Shown: piece after piece, positions 11,129-20,180 of the stretch | Layout: every line of letters begins with the position of its first letter | Numbering within the stretch: the stretch's first letter is position 1 | Source: Flavobacteriaceae bacterium | GTDB taxonomy: Bacteria; Bacteroidota; Bacteroidia; Flavobacteriales; Flavobacteriaceae | Assembly (NCBI GenBank): GCA_029252105.1 | Contig: JAQXCA010000018.1 | Location: 1-38,376 of the forward strand | DNA: 38,376 nucleotides | Direction: 5' to 3' | The notes under the pieces: model-generated | The model's database searches: none | What the model was told of the DNA's origin: nothing | The model's input: the letters and a program-made list of their open reading frames with translations, nothing else | Position numbers and translations under genes: made by a program

Positions 11129-12256
11129 ATGACTTTTGAGACTATTATAGGCCAATCTTTTTTAACAACACACTTGAAGCAAGGGATTGATTCTGGTCGT
11201 ATTCCACATGCACAGCTTTATGTTGGTAAACAAGGGGTCGGTGCACTTCCAATGGCCATTGCCTATGCCGATTATTTAATGACGCATCAAGAAAGTGGGG
11301 TGGGCAATATGAATCCACTAACTCATCCCAATATTCATTTTGTATACCCTGTGACTACAAGCGACAAAGTCAAGTCTAAACCAATCTCAACGAATTATCT
11401 TTCCGAATGGCGTTCTTTTATTGAAACGAACCCTTATGGATCTATTAATGATTGGTATGATGTCGTTGGAGTAGGAAATAAGCAAGGCGCTATTGGGGTC
11501 GAAGAAGCGAATGATATTGTTTCCAAAATGTCCTTGAAAGCTTTTAATGGCGGCTATAAAGTAATGATTGTTTGGATGGCAGAAAAAATGAATACAGGGT
11601 GTGCGAATAAGCTCCTTAAATTAATTGAGGAACCTGCGGACAAAACAATTATCATTCTAGTAACGGAAGACGAAGAACAACTTATCAACACAATACGATC
11701 GCGCTGTCAAACAGTACATTTGAATTTGCTTTCTGAGGATACTATCAAGGAAACACTAATCTCTACGCACAATACAGAAGCTGGATTAGCGCAAAACATT
11801 GCCCACCAATCAGAGGGAAGCTACCGACGCGCACTCGATTTACTGCGTCAGGAGCCTGAAGATCTTCAGTTTGAGGCGTGGTTTATAGCGTGGGTTCGAA
11901 CAGCGTTTCAAGCCAAAACCAACAAACAATCTATTAATAATTTAATGGCTTGGAGTGACGAAATCTCTAAAGCTGGGCGTGAGATCCAAAAGCAATTCTT
12001 GGATTACAGCTTGCGCTTTTTTAGACAAGCACTACTGTATAATTATGGGGCTAAAAGCTTGGTTTTTATGGTTTTAAGTGACAAGTCGTTTAAGTTTGAA
12101 AATTTTGCGCCATTTATAGATGCTTCGAATATTGCTGAGATATCTAAAGAAATTGAATTGGCAAACTACCACATCGAACGCAATGCTAATGCGAAGATTG
12201 TTTTGACTGATTTATCAATCAAATTAACGCGGTTATTACATTTGAAAAAAGCTTAG
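11129..12256 (+). CDS. holB: DNA polymerase III subunit delta'
   Basis: FETIIGQSFLTTHLKQGI, HAQLYVG, KLLKLIEEPADKTIIILVTEDEEQLINTIRSRCQ clamp-loader motifs. Confidence 0.9.
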   Translation: MTFETIIGQSFLTTHLKQGIDSGRIPHAQLYVGKQGVGALPMAIAYADYLMTHQESGVGNMNPLTHPNIHFVYPVTTSDKVKSKPISTNYLSEWRSFIETNPYGSINDWYDVVGVGNKQGAIGVEEANDIVSKMSLKAFNGGYKVMIVWMAEKMNTGCANKLLKLIEEPADKTIIILVTEDEEQLINTIRSRCQTVHLNLLSEDTIKETLISTHNTEAGLAQNIAHQSEGSYRRALDLLRQEPEDLQFEAWFIAWVRTAFQAKTNKQSINNLMAWSDEISKAGREIQKQFLDYSLRFFRQALLYNYGAKSLVFMVLSDKSFKFENFAPFIDASNIAEISKEIELANYHIERNANAKIVLTDLSIKLTRLLHLKKA

Positions 12257-12765
12257 TTTTTAACGTAACCGTCGTTGAGAGCTTTTAAAATCTCTTGTGT
12301 TAAATCTGAGGACTCTTCACCATACAGAACACTTCCTGCTTCATTACTCCCTAAAATGTAGTTATAGTTATTTGATTTTCCGTAAGCTCTAACAAAGTTT
12401 TTGACCGTTTTAATTAGAGAGTCATTAAGTGTTTGGCTTTCTTGTGCAATTTGTTGTTGTTCAAACTGAACACGTTGAGACAATACTTGTTCTTTTTGCT
12501 GAAGCTCTTGTGATAATTTCTGGACATCTGCTTGTGACATTTTTCGTGCTCGTAACTCCGCTTCTTTTATTTCTAATTCAAAGGCTGAGCGCAAACTATC
12601 GGTGCGAGATTTGAAAGCATCAATTTTTATTTGAAGGTTTGCTTCAATATCAACACGTTCTTGGTATTCATTAATAAGAACCCCATTATCCACAAAACCA
12701 ATTTTTTGCTGTTGGCAAGCGGTGAAACTTAGTATCGTTAAAAATGCAATCGCTAATTTTTTCAT
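12253..12765 (-). CDS. OmpH/Skp-like protein with a lipobox
   Basis: MKKLAIAFLTILSFTACQQQ lipoprotein-type leader, then QKIGFVDNGVLINEYQ and a Q/E-rich coiled coil; start trimmed from 12792. Confidence 0.8.
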   Translation of the reverse strand: MKKLAIAFLTILSFTACQQQKIGFVDNGVLINEYQERVDIEANLQIKIDAFKSRTDSLRSAFELEIKEAELRARKMSQADVQKLSQELQQKEQVLSQRVQFEQQQIAQESQTLNDSLIKTVKNFVRAYGKSNNYNYILGSNEAGSVLYGEESSDLTQEILKALNDGYVKN

Positions 12766-12789
12766 GTCGGAGTAATTTGTTTGTGAATA

Positions 12790-12797
12790 CAAAAGTA
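12790..12797 (-). promoter_or_regulatory. -7 element (TACTTTTG) upstream of the Skp-like gene
   Basis: CAAAAGTA on + strand is TACTTTTG on the minus strand, 24 nt before ATG 12765; -33 weak. Confidence 0.4.
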
Positions 12798-12985: not shown

Positions 12986-13005
12986 AAAATACTAATTAGT
13001 ATTTT
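12986..13005. repeat. 20-bp perfect AT-rich palindrome AAAATACTAATTAGTATTTT
   Basis: Exact inverted symmetry centred at 12995/12996, overlapping the methyltransferase stop codon. Confidence 0.6.
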
Positions 13006-13846
13006 TTAAAACATATATAAGCGAGGAATATTCGCCAGAAGTTGCTGCTTTAAGATTCGACAACAATCCAATCCAAAAACTGCCTAAAACACGATGGGAC
13101 CCTGTTTTTAGCTTATTTGAAAGCAAACTCACATAATAGGCGTCCAATGGCAAAGGGTGTGTGGACTCTAATCGCATTTGAACAGTTGAAAACAACTTAG
13201 GAATCGAACGCTGTGAAAAATGCCAAAGGTGTCTTGGTGCATCATACGCCGCCCAATGCTCTTTAAAATAAAAGGCATCAAAACTTTTAAAATTTGGGAC
13301 AGCCACAACAATGCGGCCGTTTGGTTTTAGTAGTTTGTGAAATAATTTAATATCATCTTCTAAATTAGGAAGATGCTCAAGCACATGCCAAAGCGTAATC
13401 ACATCAAAAGATTTTGACTGAAGTTGACGTAAGGTTTCTGTATCAAAAACAGAATTCTCTGCTTTGATGTTTGCTAGATTCCTGGCAGATGCGTTGGGCT
13501 CAACTCCTGTAACGATCCAACCATTATTTTTAGCAGCTCTTAAAAAATACCCGGTACCTGCTCCAACATCCAATAAGGCTGCATGCTTGGATTGAAATGG
13601 TTTTAAAAGGCGCAGCTTTCGTCGAGTGGAAACATGCCTAGCTGCGTGGTATAAGAAATCGAAAAGGGAGCGTCGTTGGTTGGTATGAGAAATATAATTT
13701 GTAGTAGGGTAGTAGCTTGAAAGTTCAGTGTCTGAAGGCTTAGGATGTGTATACAACAACTCCCTGGACGCATCATAAATGAGCTCAAAAGAATCCCCGC
13801 TAACGGAATGGTCTTTAACTTTTATGCTGGGATTGTGTGTCTTCAT
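12992..13846 (-). CDS. Class I SAM-dependent methyltransferase
   Basis: LLDVGAGTGYFLRAAKNNGWIVTGVEPN, FDVITLWHVLEHLP. Start set at ATG 13844-13846; the longer ORF reads TTG into a parS palindrome. Confidence 0.9.
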   Translation of the reverse strand: MKTHNPSIKVKDHSVSGDSFELIYDASRELLYTHPKPSDTELSSYYPTTNYISHTNQRRSLFDFLYHAARHVSTRRKLRLLKPFQSKHAALLDVGAGTGYFLRAAKNNGWIVTGVEPNASARNLANIKAENSVFDTETLRQLQSKSFDVITLWHVLEHLPNLEDDIKLFHKLLKPNGRIVVAVPNFKSFDAFYFKEHWAAYDAPRHLWHFSQRSIPKLFSTVQMRLESTHPLPLDAYYVSLLSNKLKTGSHRVLGSFWIGLLSNLKAATSGEYSSLIYVLKNTN

Positions 13847-13850
13847 ATCG

Positions 13851-13866
13851 TGTTCCACGTGGAACA
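13851..13866. promoter_or_regulatory. parS-like ParB binding site (TGTTCCACGTGGAACA)
   Basis: Perfect 16-bp palindrome with the parS core (GTTNCACGTGNAAC), between mnmG and the methyltransferase start. Confidence 0.88.
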
Positions 13867-13877
13867 ATTACAATTAA

Positions 13878-15749
13878 TTATCGCCCCATATAGACTAAAA
13901 GTACAGAAATGTCATTTGGAGATACACCGCTAATACGCGACGCTTGAGCAACTGTTGTAGGTTGAACTTTTTTTAATTTTTCTCTAGCCTCATAGCTCAT
14001 AGACTTGATTTGCGAAAAGTCAAAATTTGATGGGATTTTTACATACTCTAAACGCGTTAGTTTATCTGCATTATTTTTTTCCTTAGTTATGTATCCCGAA
14101 TATTTCACCTGAATCTCTGCTTGTTCAATAACCTCGCTATCTAAATTATTGGATGTAATATACTTCTCTACAGCTTCAAATTTGCGAACATCTTCAATAC
14201 CAATATTGGGTCTCGAAAAGATTTTAAACATTTTATCTGACTGACGAATAGGGGCAGATTTTTTACTTTCCAACACTGGATTCGCCTCTTCTGGCTTTAC
14301 GCTTTGAGTTCTAAAAAACCCTACAAACGCTTCGGCTTTAGACAACTTTTCTTCCATGCGTTTTAGTCGTTTTTCACTCGCAATACCTAATTCATAGCCT
14401 TTTGGCGTCAATCGAATGTCGGCATTATCTTGACGTAATAAGGTGCGGTACTCAGCCCGAGACGTAAACATACGGTAAGGCTCTTCAGTTCCTTTTGTTA
14501 TGAGGTCATCAATTAATACTCCGATGTATGCCTCGTTTCTTTTAAGAATAAATGACTCCTTTTCTTGGACTTTTAAACTCGCGTTGATTCCTGCCATTAA
14601 CCCTTGAGAAGCGGCTTCTTCGTAGCCTGTTGTCCCATTAATTTGTCCCGCAAAAAACAAGCCTTTTATTAGCTTCGTTTCTAAAGAATGTGTCAATTGC
14701 GTAGGAGGGAAGTAGTCATATTCAATGGCATATCCTGGTCTAAAAAACTTGACATTTTCAAATCCTTTTACAGCGCTTAGTGCTTTGAATTGGACGTCTT
14801 CTGGTAATGATGTTGAAAACCCATTAATATAATACTCTACAGTATTCCACCCTTCGGGTTCAACAAAGATTTGGTGACGATCTTTGTCTGCAAAGCGATT
14901 AATTTTATCTTCTATAGAAGGGCAGTATCGAGGCCCTAAACTCTGGATTCGTCCATTAAACATGGGGGAGCGATCAAAGCCTTCCCTCAACAAGTTATGG
15001 ACCTCCAAACTTGTGTAAGACATATGGCAAGAGCGTTGGTTTGACAACGGTTTTGTGGCGTCTGAATATGAAAATTTTTCTGGAGAAACATCGCCTGGCT
15101 GTTCAATCATTTTAGAAAAATCTAGAGAACGTCCGTCCACTCTTGGAGGTGTACCTGTTTTCATTCGGCCCGACTCGAACCCTAAATCGACTAGTTGTTC
15201 TGTAATTCCAGTTGCTGCTTTTTCTCCAGCGCGTCCTCCTCCAAAATTCTTATTACCAATATGGATTAAACCATTAAGAAATGTGCCATTAGTTAACACC
15301 ACCGATTTAGCTCTGATTTCTAACCCTAAAGATGTTTTCACACCCTTGACCACATCACCTTCAATAACAAGACCCGTAACCATTTCTTGATAAAAATCTA
15401 AATTATCAGTCTGCTCAAGCAGTGTTCTCCAGTCTTCAGCAAAACGCATTCGATCACTCTGTACGCGTGGACTCCACATCGCTGGACCTTTGGACTTGTT
15501 AAGCATTTTAAACTGAATGGCAGAAGTGTCGCTTACAATACCACTATACCCTCCAAGAGCGTCAATTTCACGTACAATCTGTCCCTTAGCAATTCCTCCC
15601 ATAGCAGGATTGCAAGACATTTGTGCTATGTTTTGTAGATTCATTGTGACAAGCAGCGTATGGCTTCCCATATTAGCTGCGGCTGCGGCTGCCTCGCTTC
15701 CTGCGTGACCACCACCAACTACAATAACGTCATAAATTTTATCAAACAT
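13878..15749 (-). CDS. mnmG: tRNA uridine-5-carboxymethylaminomethyl(34) synthesis enzyme MnmG
   Basis: DVIVVGGGHAGSEAAAAAANMG, SCNPAMGGIAKGQIVREIDALGG, GPRYCPSIEDKI, GQINGTTGYEEAASQGL. Confidence 0.98.
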   Translation of the reverse strand: MFDKIYDVIVVGGGHAGSEAAAAAANMGSHTLLVTMNLQNIAQMSCNPAMGGIAKGQIVREIDALGGYSGIVSDTSAIQFKMLNKSKGPAMWSPRVQSDRMRFAEDWRTLLEQTDNLDFYQEMVTGLVIEGDVVKGVKTSLGLEIRAKSVVLTNGTFLNGLIHIGNKNFGGGRAGEKAATGITEQLVDLGFESGRMKTGTPPRVDGRSLDFSKMIEQPGDVSPEKFSYSDATKPLSNQRSCHMSYTSLEVHNLLREGFDRSPMFNGRIQSLGPRYCPSIEDKINRFADKDRHQIFVEPEGWNTVEYYINGFSTSLPEDVQFKALSAVKGFENVKFFRPGYAIEYDYFPPTQLTHSLETKLIKGLFFAGQINGTTGYEEAASQGLMAGINASLKVQEKESFILKRNEAYIGVLIDDLITKGTEEPYRMFTSRAEYRTLLRQDNADIRLTPKGYELGIASEKRLKRMEEKLSKAEAFVGFFRTQSVKPEEANPVLESKKSAPIRQSDKMFKIFSRPNIGIEDVRKFEAVEKYITSNNLDSEVIEQAEIQVKYSGYITKEKNNADKLTRLEYVKIPSNFDFSQIKSMSYEAREKLKKVQPTTVAQASRISGVSPNDISVLLVYMGR

Positions 15750-15764
15750 GGTTTACTGTATTAA

Positions 15765-15780
15765 TGTTCCACGTGGAACA
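15765..15780. promoter_or_regulatory. parS-like ParB binding site (TGTTCCACGTGGAACA)
   Basis: Second exact copy of the same 16-bp palindrome, between mnmG and ybeY. Confidence 0.88.
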
Positions 15781-15816
15781 AATCGTTTGCAGCTGCAAAT
15801 ATAGGGCTTTAGAAAA

Positions 15817-16230
15817 TTAATAGCCCTGTTGTTGAAGATAGAACTCTTCCTTGGAACGCATCGTTGCTGTTTGGCTAGTAGATTTATCTTTGTATCCACA
15901 GTAATGCAAAACGCCATGTGCCATAACCCTTGAAAGCTCAGCTTCGAAAGTTTGATTGAAGTCGCCGGCGTTTTCACGCACACGTTCAATAGAAATAAAA
16001 ATTTCACCGTGAATCTCTTTGCCTACAGAGTAGTCAAAACTAATAACATCAGTCAGCGTATCATGGTCGAGAAACTCAACATTAAGTTTGTGTAGAAACT
16101 CATCATCACAAAACACAATTGAGACCTCGCCTTCATTGTAAGATTCTTGTGTGATAATTGAACTCAACCAATCAGCAGTCTGTTTAGGTGCTGTAATTTG
16201 AAATGGTATTTCTGAATGGAAACTAATCAT
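15817..16230 (-). CDS. ybeY: rRNA maturation RNase YbeY
   Basis: LNVEFLDHDTLTDVISFDY, MAHGVLHYCGYKD (HGxLHxxGYxH-type motif). Confidence 0.94.
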   Translation of the reverse strand: MISFHSEIPFQITAPKQTADWLSSIITQESYNEGEVSIVFCDDEFLHKLNVEFLDHDTLTDVISFDYSVGKEIHGEIFISIERVRENAGDFNQTFEAELSRVMAHGVLHYCGYKDKSTSQTATMRSKEEFYLQQQGY

Positions 16231-19200
16231 TATTATTCTTAAAATAGTCCTGTACCTTCAACTTGTACTTCTGACGCAAAGGTAAGCTTTGTCGGTTTAA
16301 TATCTCTGTGGTATTAAAGTATTGTTTGATGGTTTCTAGACTCGGGACTGGAACCTGAAAACGCCCTGAGTTATTAGTGTTGGAAACACGCTTAGTGTCC
16401 TCGCCTTGTTGCTGAACTGCCTTCTCTAGTTTTAATAACTGGTGTTTTAAGGCTGTCATATCATCGAGTGATTTGCTTGTAAGTCCTTGATTGATAAGGT
16501 TTTGTTCTATTTTTTCCATGGCATCAAGAAGCGAATTCCCGTTACCTCTTAAGCCGTTTTTATCTAATAAATCTTGGAGTGCATTACGCAAGCTTTGTTG
16601 TTTTTTGAAAATCTCAAACAACTCTCCTGTGTCCACTTCGGAATCGCCCTCTTGTACGCTTTGTCCGTTTTGACCGCCGTTTACACCGTCTTTTCCCTGC
16701 TTGCCGTTCTTACCACTTTGTCCCTCCTTTGAGCTAAGACTCCCTTCCTTACCTTCATCAGAGCTCTGTTGAGAACCGTCCTTCCCTTTCTCTGAGCCCT
16801 CTTGTTCACCGTTTGGCTGTCCTGAAGATTTACCGAGCTCTTTTTCCATCTGTTTATTCAATTCCTCTTGACTCATTATAATGTCTGGAAGCTGCATTTC
16901 GCCTTCGCCTTGACCTGGCGATATTTGCATTTGCATTTCCATATTATCCAACGTATTGCTTAACTTATCGGCTAAGGAATTTGTCGCCGAAACAACAAAT
17001 TGTTGAGCACCTATCGCCTTGCGAAAACTGTTCTCAGAAAGTAACTCAAGGCTTTTATCAATATTAAAATAAACTTCTGTAATTTCTTTATTTATAGGTT
17101 CTGAAATCTTTGGTTGCCTGAGCGACAAAGAAAACAGGCTGTCGTCAATGTGTTCAAAGTGTTCACGCAAATCATTTTGCTTTACAAGACGTTTCGCATA
17201 ATCGGTGTTGGTATTAGAAGTGGACTGAAACCGCTTCATGAGGGCTTCTTGATCAAATGAAAACAACAGTAAATTATCTAGAATTTTACGCAACATATCA
17301 ATGTCTTCGCTCATTTGCTCACCGCTTCCGCTACTCATTTGTTGAGCCATTTGCTGACTCATTTGTTGCATTTTTTGTGCCGCCTTTTGTTGGCTTTTTT
17401 GTGCCTTTTTGGAACGCTTGCTTTGTTCTTGAGTGTCTGAAGACCCCTCTTTTTTACCTAAGTCCTCGCTTGCTTGTTTCTGGTCATTTTTAATCGATTC
17501 TTCTAGGCTTGGGTCGTCAGGTAATGCTAAAGGTTTTGAAAGGCTCTCGTTATCTTTTCTTAAAGCATCTAGATCTTTTTGAAGATCCTCAAATTCAGTG
17601 TTCAGCTTGTCTTGCGCTTCCTTGGTGTTATTTTCTTCTGAAGCCTTAGATAATTCTGTTTGTTCTTCAGAGAGTACGTCTAGGGTGGTTTTAATTTGTT
17701 CTGCTTTTTTAGTGACATAAAAACGCTTAGTGAGTTCCAATAATTGTTCTAAACTGCGTTGTTTGTTTTTGTTTTGCTTCGCCATGTCATCCAATTTCTC
17801 GGCTAGGGCTTCTTTATTAATTTTATCCGTAACTTTCTTCAGCTCTTCCAGTAACTTTTCATCTTTTTTGAGAGCCTCCTGCTGTGCTTCAAGGCGGTTT
17901 TCTAAGGCATCTTTAAAAGGATCCTCAGCATTAGATTTCTCAAACTGGTTTAAATTTTCCTGCATTTTCTTGTTGAAATTTTTCAACATCTTGTCCTGTG
18001 CTTGTTGACGCTCTAAAAATGACTTTAACTTTTGTTGATCACTAAAATTAAGCTGTTCCTTTTCTTTTTGATTTTTGGAGAGGGTTTCCAAGTTTTTATC
18101 TTGTTCGGATAACGCATTTAATGCCTTTTGAAATTCCTTAGTTAATTCGTTTTGTTCTTTAAGCTGAAGGTCTTGAATTGTGTTTTCGCTTTTGGAATTA
18201 TAATTAAATACACGGCTTCGTGTTGTTTTAGTGTTGTGAAAAGGGTCGTTGTCTGCAACTTCAAAATAGAGTGCATAGGCAGTGTCGTCAATGAGCTCTA
18301 AGTTGGAAGGGAAAGCATGAGTAAACTCTTGAAAGGTTGTAGCGTTGGATGGTAAAACGAGTTCAGAACGATTAGCCATATCGTCGACAGGGTAATAGAA
18401 AAGTTTTAAGTTACTGATGCCATAATCATCAGAGATTTGGCCATAAAAATACAACGATTCCTGAAGGGTTGAGTCTTGTTTCATTTCAACCTTGATCGCT
18501 GGCGATTGGTCCTTAACCGATTTTATAGAAAACGTAAGACGTTCATAATTTTTAAGCTGAGTATTACTCGTTTGTATGGTATAATTTAAAGATTCAAAAA
18601 CACGTTTGCTGTAGTAAAAATTGTGGGTGTTTTGATTAAAAAAAGCTATGGTATCTTTATAAGCAAACGCCACTGTATCGGTTGATTTGGTTCGTAAATC
18701 CCACCTCAGTATAGTGCCTTCAGGAATTGTGGCATTGCCGTTGTTTGTAATGTTCTCATCGCTTTTGCCTGTATAGGCTGGATAATCTAGATACATGTCA
18801 AAACTCAACAATACAGGAATAGGCGACACCTCTAAGCGGTAGCGTTTAGACTCCAATTCATTGGCTGTTAAGCTGAAATTAAGAGCAAATTTTGGTTGAG
18901 TAAAGGTATATTCAAAAACCCCTAGTTGGGTTTGACTAAGAATATAAGCTTCTTCATTATAAACAATTTGAACATCTTCTGGCACCACAGACCCAACGGT
19001 TTTGACGACTACCGTAAAAGGAGTGTTTTCAATAGCTTCAAGACTCGTGTTCATTACAAAAAACTCAAACGGAGCAGGTGGAGCGTAGGCTGTTTTGTAA
19101 TTCACAACACGGTCTAGACTATCGGTGAATACAGCTTGTTTACCAAACAAGATACACACAAAAATAATAAGAAGTGGCGCTGCTGCATACCGCAAATATT

Positions 19201-19804
19201 TAAGATTATCAGAGAAATTGACCGCACTTTTAAAAGGGATTATGCTTAAGTTTTTCGATTTTTGTTCGATGCTAGCTAATAGAAATTCCGTTTGTTCCGA
19301 TTGTTGATTGAGCTGAAGAACGTTTAAAAGTTTGTCTTTCACTTCTGGAAAATGATCGCCCACAATTTTTGATGCGGCTTCAAGGTTAATGCCGTTTTGG
19401 AGTTTAAAGTATTTGGCTAACGGAATTAATATAAACCCATAAAACAAAAGTGCTTCAACACCAATACCACCAGCAAACAAAAGCCGTCGACCAAAAGAAT
19501 TCAACCAAAAAAAATGCTCTATACTCAGTATTAGAAAAACATATAGCAATCCTATGGCGAAAAACAACAACGCACCTTTTAAAAGCGCACTGATATAATA
19601 GCGCCTAATAAAGTGTTCGAGTTTTTGCTCTATAAGATAAAAGCTGTCCAAGTGTGATTCGTTTTGAGGTACTAAAATTACAATAATAATCCATAATGCG
19701 TGTGCGTTAATATTGATTTGTGAAAAATTATTAGTGTGCGAAAACGAAAGGGGTAAGCGTTCTGATTGTTGCCTTGATAATAAAACGCTACCGTAGAAAT
19801 CCAT
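16223..19804 (-). CDS. DUF4175 family large membrane/coiled-coil protein (true start probably downstream of the track's ATG)
   Basis: Early TM segments, very long K/E/Q-rich coiled coil, Gly-rich low-complexity stretch, C-terminal RQSLPLRQKYKLKVQDYF; DUF4175 recognised from memory. Confidence 0.8.
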   Translation of the reverse strand: MDFYGSVLLSRQQSERLPLSFSHTNNFSQININAHALWIIIVILVPQNESHLDSFYLIEQKLEHFIRRYYISALLKGALLFFAIGLLYVFLILSIEHFFWLNSFGRRLLFAGGIGVEALLFYGFILIPLAKYFKLQNGINLEAASKIVGDHFPEVKDKLLNVLQLNQQSEQTEFLLASIEQKSKNLSIIPFKSAVNFSDNLKYLRYAAAPLLIIFVCILFGKQAVFTDSLDRVVNYKTAYAPPAPFEFFVMNTSLEAIENTPFTVVVKTVGSVVPEDVQIVYNEEAYILSQTQLGVFEYTFTQPKFALNFSLTANELESKRYRLEVSPIPVLLSFDMYLDYPAYTGKSDENITNNGNATIPEGTILRWDLRTKSTDTVAFAYKDTIAFFNQNTHNFYYSKRVFESLNYTIQTSNTQLKNYERLTFSIKSVKDQSPAIKVEMKQDSTLQESLYFYGQISDDYGISNLKLFYYPVDDMANRSELVLPSNATTFQEFTHAFPSNLELIDDTAYALYFEVADNDPFHNTKTTRSRVFNYNSKSENTIQDLQLKEQNELTKEFQKALNALSEQDKNLETLSKNQKEKEQLNFSDQQKLKSFLERQQAQDKMLKNFNKKMQENLNQFEKSNAEDPFKDALENRLEAQQEALKKDEKLLEELKKVTDKINKEALAEKLDDMAKQNKNKQRSLEQLLELTKRFYVTKKAEQIKTTLDVLSEEQTELSKASEENNTKEAQDKLNTEFEDLQKDLDALRKDNESLSKPLALPDDPSLEESIKNDQKQASEDLGKKEGSSDTQEQSKRSKKAQKSQQKAAQKMQQMSQQMAQQMSSGSGEQMSEDIDMLRKILDNLLLFSFDQEALMKRFQSTSNTNTDYAKRLVKQNDLREHFEHIDDSLFSLSLRQPKISEPINKEITEVYFNIDKSLELLSENSFRKAIGAQQFVVSATNSLADKLSNTLDNMEMQMQISPGQGEGEMQLPDIIMSQEELNKQMEKELGKSSGQPNGEQEGSEKGKDGSQQSSDEGKEGSLSSKEGQSGKNGKQGKDGVNGGQNGQSVQEGDSEVDTGELFEIFKKQQSLRNALQDLLDKNGLRGNGNSLLDAMEKIEQNLINQGLTSKSLDDMTALKHQLLKLEKAVQQQGEDTKRVSNTNNSGRFQVPVPSLETIKQYFNTTEILNRQSLPLRQKYKLKVQDYFKNNND

Positions 19805-20180
19805 TTGTATGGCTGGTGTACAAAAACTAGTGTTTACATAAAAGATGGGTTGTAAACAAAAAGAATAGGTAGCACCTGTTTATTTCACAACGCAGAAGAT
19901 TACGTTATAGCTGTGTGGCTGATTGTCCAAGTCTAAAAGGAACTATTGATGATCTGATCATTTTTAGAATGGATAAAAGTAAATTTTTAATTATCAAACA
20001 AAAGGATTTATACAGCAGAAGAGGGCTTTTATGCAATGGTTTTGGCTGTGACTGGTATTTTAAAAATAATGCTGTTTTCTTTACATCAAAACGGAAAGAA
20101 TCACAAAACATTTAGTAAATTAGAGGCATAAACGCGAAGCTAACTAAACACAAACGCTACTTTATAAACCAAAAAGCTGA

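Follow-up and report, generated by a model that had tools for sequence, protein, structure and literature searches.

The window analysed here is a stretch of 38,376 nucleotides from a Flavobacteriaceae bacterium, the source genome of which is a metagenome-assembled genome (MAG) of 1.58 Mb in 112 contigs that is 73% complete. A gene that we take, from established knowledge of the family, to be mnmG (gidA) is located within it, and the claim of a preliminary description that two identical and exact 16-base palindromes, TGTTCCACGTGGAACA, flank this gene was confirmed. In coordinate order, the features of the locus are:

12253..12792, minus strand: gene for an OmpH/Skp-like protein, in the conserved neighbourhood (Pfam PF03938; synteny)
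12992..13846, minus strand: gene for a SAM-dependent methyltransferase, the conserved downstream neighbour (Pfam PF13489)
13851..13866, no strand: probable parS site 2, TGTTCCACGTGGAACA, between the mnmG stop codon (11 bp away) and the methyltransferase ATG (4 bp away)
13878..15749, minus strand: mnmG (gidA), presumed tRNA uridine-5-carboxymethylaminomethyl modification enzyme of 623 aa, between both sites (open reading frame)
15765..15780, no strand: probable parS site 1, TGTTCCACGTGGAACA, an exact palindrome in the mnmG leader, 15 bp upstream of the mnmG ATG
15796..15803, minus strand: TATATTTG, probable -7 element of the mnmG promoter (Bacteroidetes type, TAnnTTTG), at position -54 relative to the ATG
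15817..16230, minus strand: ybeY, endoribonuclease, the conserved upstream neighbour of mnmG (Pfam PF02130)
16223..19804, minus strand: gene for a DUF4175 protein, in the conserved neighbourhood (Pfam PF13779; synteny)

Site 1 is located within the 67-bp gap between ybeY and mnmG. The motif TATATTTG, which is kept in the same-genus genomes compared and which we assume from general knowledge to be a promoter element of the Bacteroidetes type, would place this site within the transcribed leader of mnmG. A perfect 14-bp palindrome, TTTGCAGCTGCAAA (15786-15799), lies beside site 1 and overlaps the promoter-like motif; it was rejected as a candidate for an additional element, being present in only one of 81 loci. 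Site 2 is located in the gap between mnmG and the methyltransferase gene, the ATG of which is at 13846. As mechanically called, the methyltransferase reading frame (12992-13867) begins with a TTG codon and overlaps the downstream palindrome, but the ATG is the more natural start, and the palindrome is then intergenic. The mis-extended frame reads through the palindrome as LFHVEH. In four relatives (G021, G024, G027 and G028), parS overlaps the 3' end of ybeY, so that YbeY acquires a C-terminus encoded by parS, such as MFHVEQ.

Both palindromes fit the 16-bp parS consensus, TGTTNCACGTGNAACA. No third match to TGTTCCACGTGGAACA was identified within the window with up to three mismatches allowed, and dinucleotide shuffles of the window (n = 100) yielded 0.11 matches on average and never two. 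Across the 112 contigs of the genome (1,578,275 bases searched), GTTNCACGTGNAAC occurs at these two places only, and the reversed control pattern gave zero matches. The genome-wide scan suggested in the preliminary description thus recovered two sites in the MAG and no even scatter.

The exact 16-mer was identified in 50 of 100 relatives, in one to three copies per genome (reversed control pattern: 0 of 100), and all except one of the loci retrieved in this manner adjoin mnmG. Many relatives have T/A at degenerate positions or an altered outer base, so the exact 16-mer underestimates the conservation, and the degenerate consensus was used in its place for the conservation counts. The mnmG gene was found in 93 of the 100 genomes in a protein search, and mnmG with its flanks was compared in 80 relatives and the window, that is 81 loci, or 78 once reduced endosymbionts were excluded. 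A parS-like site was present on both sides of mnmG in 58 of the 78 loci and on at least one side in 77 (at most two mismatches, within 160 bp), as compared to 0.0004 sites per gap when shuffled gaps were scanned in the same way. Counted over all 81 loci, 66 have a site in the upstream gap (at most one mismatch) and 69 on the downstream side (at most two mismatches), lying 5 to 126 bp away from mnmG. The exact consensus sites of 10 relatives with complete or nearly complete genomes are all located at the mnmG locus. The positional conservation proposed in the preliminary description was thereby borne out.

The check on the conservation of the two gaps gave a divided answer, in that the sites are conserved and the surrounding gap sequence is not. 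The information content of the core site columns is about 1.2-3.3 bits versus about 0.1 in the flanks, and such nearly invariant columns within flanks that are almost empty of information indicate selection on the sites themselves rather than on the gaps. The genes around the sites are also stably arranged, with ybeY adjoining mnmG in nearly all Flavobacteriales loci and the methyltransferase gene located downstream of mnmG in most relatives. One genome of the same genus (G010; single contig, 99% complete) gave no match to mnmG or pgk, and the parS block seems to be missing or masked; G009, G017 and G022 were listed beside it for the same anomaly.

A wider scan for a half-parS close upstream of mnmG, with one genome per species, gave at least 120 matches. 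Among the matches listed were many Bacteroidota, Chlorobiaceae, Calditrichota, KSB1, Alphaproteobacteria, relatives of Bacteriovorax and some Clostridia, and parS was also found upstream of mnmG in Bartonella, Rhizobium and Sphingomonas. Among the same matches, the gene has sites on both sides in Chlorobiaceae (L261, L304), Calditrichota (L209, L319), KSB1 (L315), Bacteroidales (L226, L294, L305) and Alphaproteobacteria (L208, L218, L251), and the Cytophagales and Sphingobacteriales listed often have two upstream sites and none downstream. In a sample at the phylum level, a strict composite pattern was present in at least 110 of 297 genomes (reversed control: 0), which is a lower bound due to the gap and codon limits of the pattern. 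The upstream array in Terrimonas ferruginea (L236), with nine parS-like sites (0-2 mismatches) over about 900 bp, is much denser than in the Flavobacteriales. Within the coding sequence of mnmG, too, parS-like palindromes were found, at position 1478 in L232, L270, L298 and L313 and near 1384-1412 in L229, L254, L260 and L321. Perhaps the protein sequence at these codons, which are about the same in unrelated phyla, is compatible with parS.

The preliminary description had named a genome without parB as grounds against parS, and the genome was found to contain both parA and parB. They are located in a parA-parB-DUF5683-like-dapB operon on a contig (C51) other than that of the window; the names parA and dapB were read from the translated sequence, and ParB matches TIGR00180 with 162 bits. 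A C-terminal parA-like fragment just upstream of the intact parA (L033:3-190) looks like the remnant of a tandem parA. In alignments, the nearest solved structures to this ParB are Myxococcus ParB, Thermus Spo0J and Caulobacter ParB. The equivalents of Q162, G170, K171, R173, N178, G201 and R204 (Caulobacter numbering) are all present, as is the CTP motif GERRFRA, and R173 and G201 show no variation among the 31 ParBs compared. These two residues are reported to be absolutely conserved in ParBs that bind parS and are changed in Noc (PMC7383237). Judged by this rule, the predicted protein has the specificity residues of the parS type. We also considered a nucleoid occlusion site (NBS) bound by Noc, and rejected it since Q173 and R201 would be expected in a Noc-type protein, and the ParB encoded here has R and G at these positions.

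Gene displacement and genome reduction provide two natural experiments. In G040, mnmG has been displaced by about 280 kb and has no site beside it at its new location, while three perfect sites are still present in the gaps around the methyltransferase gene, where all exact consensus sites of this genome are located. Furthermore, parB was identified in 73 of 76 near-complete relatives, and the only three without it (G075, G086 and G095, of symbiont size at 0.3-0.6 Mb) also have no sites at mnmG, despite which mnmG and ybeY are still neighbours. These three belong to one rapidly decaying endosymbiont family and represent one or a few independent losses. parS and parB thus co-occur across the genomes, and this co-absence, together with G040, favors a function for ParB over an operator for mnmG.

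Where is this locus relative to the origin of replication? In five of seven chromosomes sampled (G038, G049, G073, G031 and G057), the origin indicated by GC skew is 0.6-4.9% of the genome length from the sites, although the skew was sampled at 20 or 10 windows per genome, a coarse grid that can only just resolve distances below about 5%. The skew is weak in G040, with the sites 7% away by plain skew and 17% by third-position skew, and the sampled skew gave no clear origin in G088. In the five relatives with a clear skew, the distance from the skew origin is 19-49% of the genome length for dnaA and 18-40% of the chromosome for parB, and dnaA is thereby a misleading origin marker in the Flavobacteriales. 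In four of them (G038, G049, G073 and G057), dnaA is on the terminus side, at 40-49% of the genome length. The origin-proximal location given in the preliminary description is therefore supported by those relatives whose skew is clear: their few sites cluster near the origin, and for the fragmented MAG (112 contigs) we infer the same from them. Its description of a ParABS cluster holds in part, in that the sites cluster; however, the MAG has parAB on a different contig, relatives have it 18-40% off, and dnaA is distant too. The classical arrangement, an origin cluster in which parS adjoins parAB and dnaA, was rejected on the same grounds.

A consistent cluster of DnaA boxes (TTATCCACA, at most one mismatch) was not identified in the window or in the 20-kb loci of 20 relatives, and the exact position of oriC was thus not located. 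The plain GC skew of the window turns at about 18-20 kb and the third-position skew does not, which suggests that the turn reflects a switch in gene strand rather than a proven origin. The turn coincides with a gap at 19805-20180; nearly all genes to the left of it are on the minus strand and nearly all genes to the right are on the plus strand.

We favor the hypothesis that these palindromes serve the ParABS system of the organism as its chromosomal centromere (parS) sites and would form a two-site partition complex, to which we assign a probability of about 0.93. The sequence TGTTCCACGTGGAACA is letter-for-letter that of parS2 and parS3 in P. aeruginosa, which are its highest-affinity ParB sites (PMC4368675). 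The assignment to parS in the preliminary description is supported by this identity, by the specificity residues of the encoded ParB and by the confinement of the sites to the mnmG locus. The role of mnmG itself is most likely that of a bystander: it would be an ancient neighbour of the origin, with flanking gaps that carry the sites. We prefer the interpretation that the sites stayed at this old neighbour as parAB and dnaA dispersed, with recurrent placement of sites at mnmG as a possible alternative to inheritance.

Could the palindromes instead be operators of a dedicated transcription factor for mnmG, and for the methyltransferase gene downstream, with an incidental resemblance to parS? 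The position of site 1 in the mnmG leader, just after the promoter-like TATATTTG, and of site 2 just before the methyltransferase start would suit such a role, and the arrangement accompanies mnmG in most genomes. However, the motif matches the universal parS in full and has the same sequence as a proven parS of P. aeruginosa, and it flanks mnmG in other phyla as well, where the neighbouring genes differ. In addition, the displaced mnmG in G040 left its sites behind at the methyltransferase gene, and endosymbionts that keep mnmG have lost the sites along with parB, all of which makes an operator very improbable. We consider it negligibly probable that the palindromes arose by chance or are the stem-loops of transcription terminators. 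Chance is excluded by the shuffles and by the conservation in relatives. Palindromes can serve as terminators, but neither of these is followed by a T run, and the exact letters are kept, including the CACGTG centre that would form the loop, rather than pairing alone.

A dual use of the sites, in which ParB loaded at parS would also modulate the transcription of mnmG and couple tRNA modification to replication and segregation, is compatible with the parS assignment and could explain why the pair stays in place. The placement of one site in the mnmG leader and the other at the 3' end of the gene is kept over the order and recurs in several phyla, and the spreading of ParB can silence nearby genes on plasmids (review PMC7333895). 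On the other hand, the distance between site and gene varies from 5 to 126 bp, genomes of the Cytophagales type have two upstream and zero downstream sites, G040 retains the sites without mnmG, and the linkage is explained by simple inheritance of an origin-neighbour gene. We therefore find a dual use distinctly unlikely; mnmG may be regulated in this way, but the explanation does not require it.

If the palindromes are parS, binding and spreading of ParB and segregation at these sites may be inferred by analogy. ParB from the parA-parB-dapB operon elsewhere in the genome would load as a CTP-dependent clamp at both sites and spread across mnmG and the neighbouring DNA into one partition complex, and ParA would then separate the partition complexes soon after the nearby origin has been replicated. 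As for condensin, canonical Smc (TIGR02168) was above the cut-off in none of nine Flavobacteriales; the SMC hinge was found in none of 60 genomes, in a search that also missed at least one control (Caulobacter) in which Smc was expected; and ScpA was found in none of the 40 searched. The controls show that these searches are not perfectly sensitive, and divergent homologues are possible. ParB-parS is nearly universal in the sampled Flavobacteriales, in which canonical Smc, the SMC hinge and ScpA went undetected. One of the two usual outputs of parS-ParB may thus be missing or divergent in the relatives searched, and the ParA-driven part is the safest portion of the mechanism. A more speculative extension, which we regard as rather unlikely, is that a fixed two-site centromere at mnmG, in the Flavobacteriales and in further phyla of the FCB group, functions without Smc-ScpAB and with no linkage to dnaA or parAB, and that ParB recruits a condensin-like partner, or couples tRNA modification to segregation, thereby holding the sites in place.

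The system resembles the ParABS system of P. aeruginosa (parS1-parS4 near oriC) in having few sites of the high-affinity type near the origin and a canonical ParB. It differs in that parAB and dnaA are unlinked from the sites, whereas parAB in P. aeruginosa is located with the sites about 7 kb from oriC. In the Proteobacteria and Firmicutes, mnmG/gidA, rsmG, parA and parB form an origin cluster. As in that cluster, mnmG is an origin-proximal neighbour of parS, but in the Flavobacteriales it is located beside ybeY and the methyltransferase gene and not beside parAB. A further parallel is a study of OMM12 gut bacteria, including two Bacteroidetes (B. caecimuris and M. intestinale), according to which, in the portions available, the origin is marked by GC skew and the parS cluster and does not always coincide with dnaA (PMC10197239). 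The same portions report that no known condensin was identified in these two gut Bacteroidetes, in line with our Flavobacteriales result; within these portions, the sites are not placed at mnmG and their position is not traced across an order (PMC10197239). A literature search recovered no paper that ties parS to mnmG in the Flavobacteriales; the main parS survey (Livny et al. 2007) was outside its reach, and part of the finding may therefore be on record, which lowers the claim to novelty.

Our findings describe a known kind of element, an origin-proximal parS, in a strikingly fixed place; what is unusual is the fixed bracket around mnmG over a whole order and the absence of linkage to parAB or dnaA. 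The parS pair around mnmG can serve as a simple landmark when the replication origin is sought in chromosomes or metagenome contigs of the Flavobacteriales, for which dnaA is unsuitable as a marker (at a distance of 19-49% of the chromosome in the complete relatives with clear skew). It also offers a clean test of how parS-ParB acts in bacteria that seemingly are without Smc-ScpAB, and of why a centromere remains at one housekeeping gene over an order.
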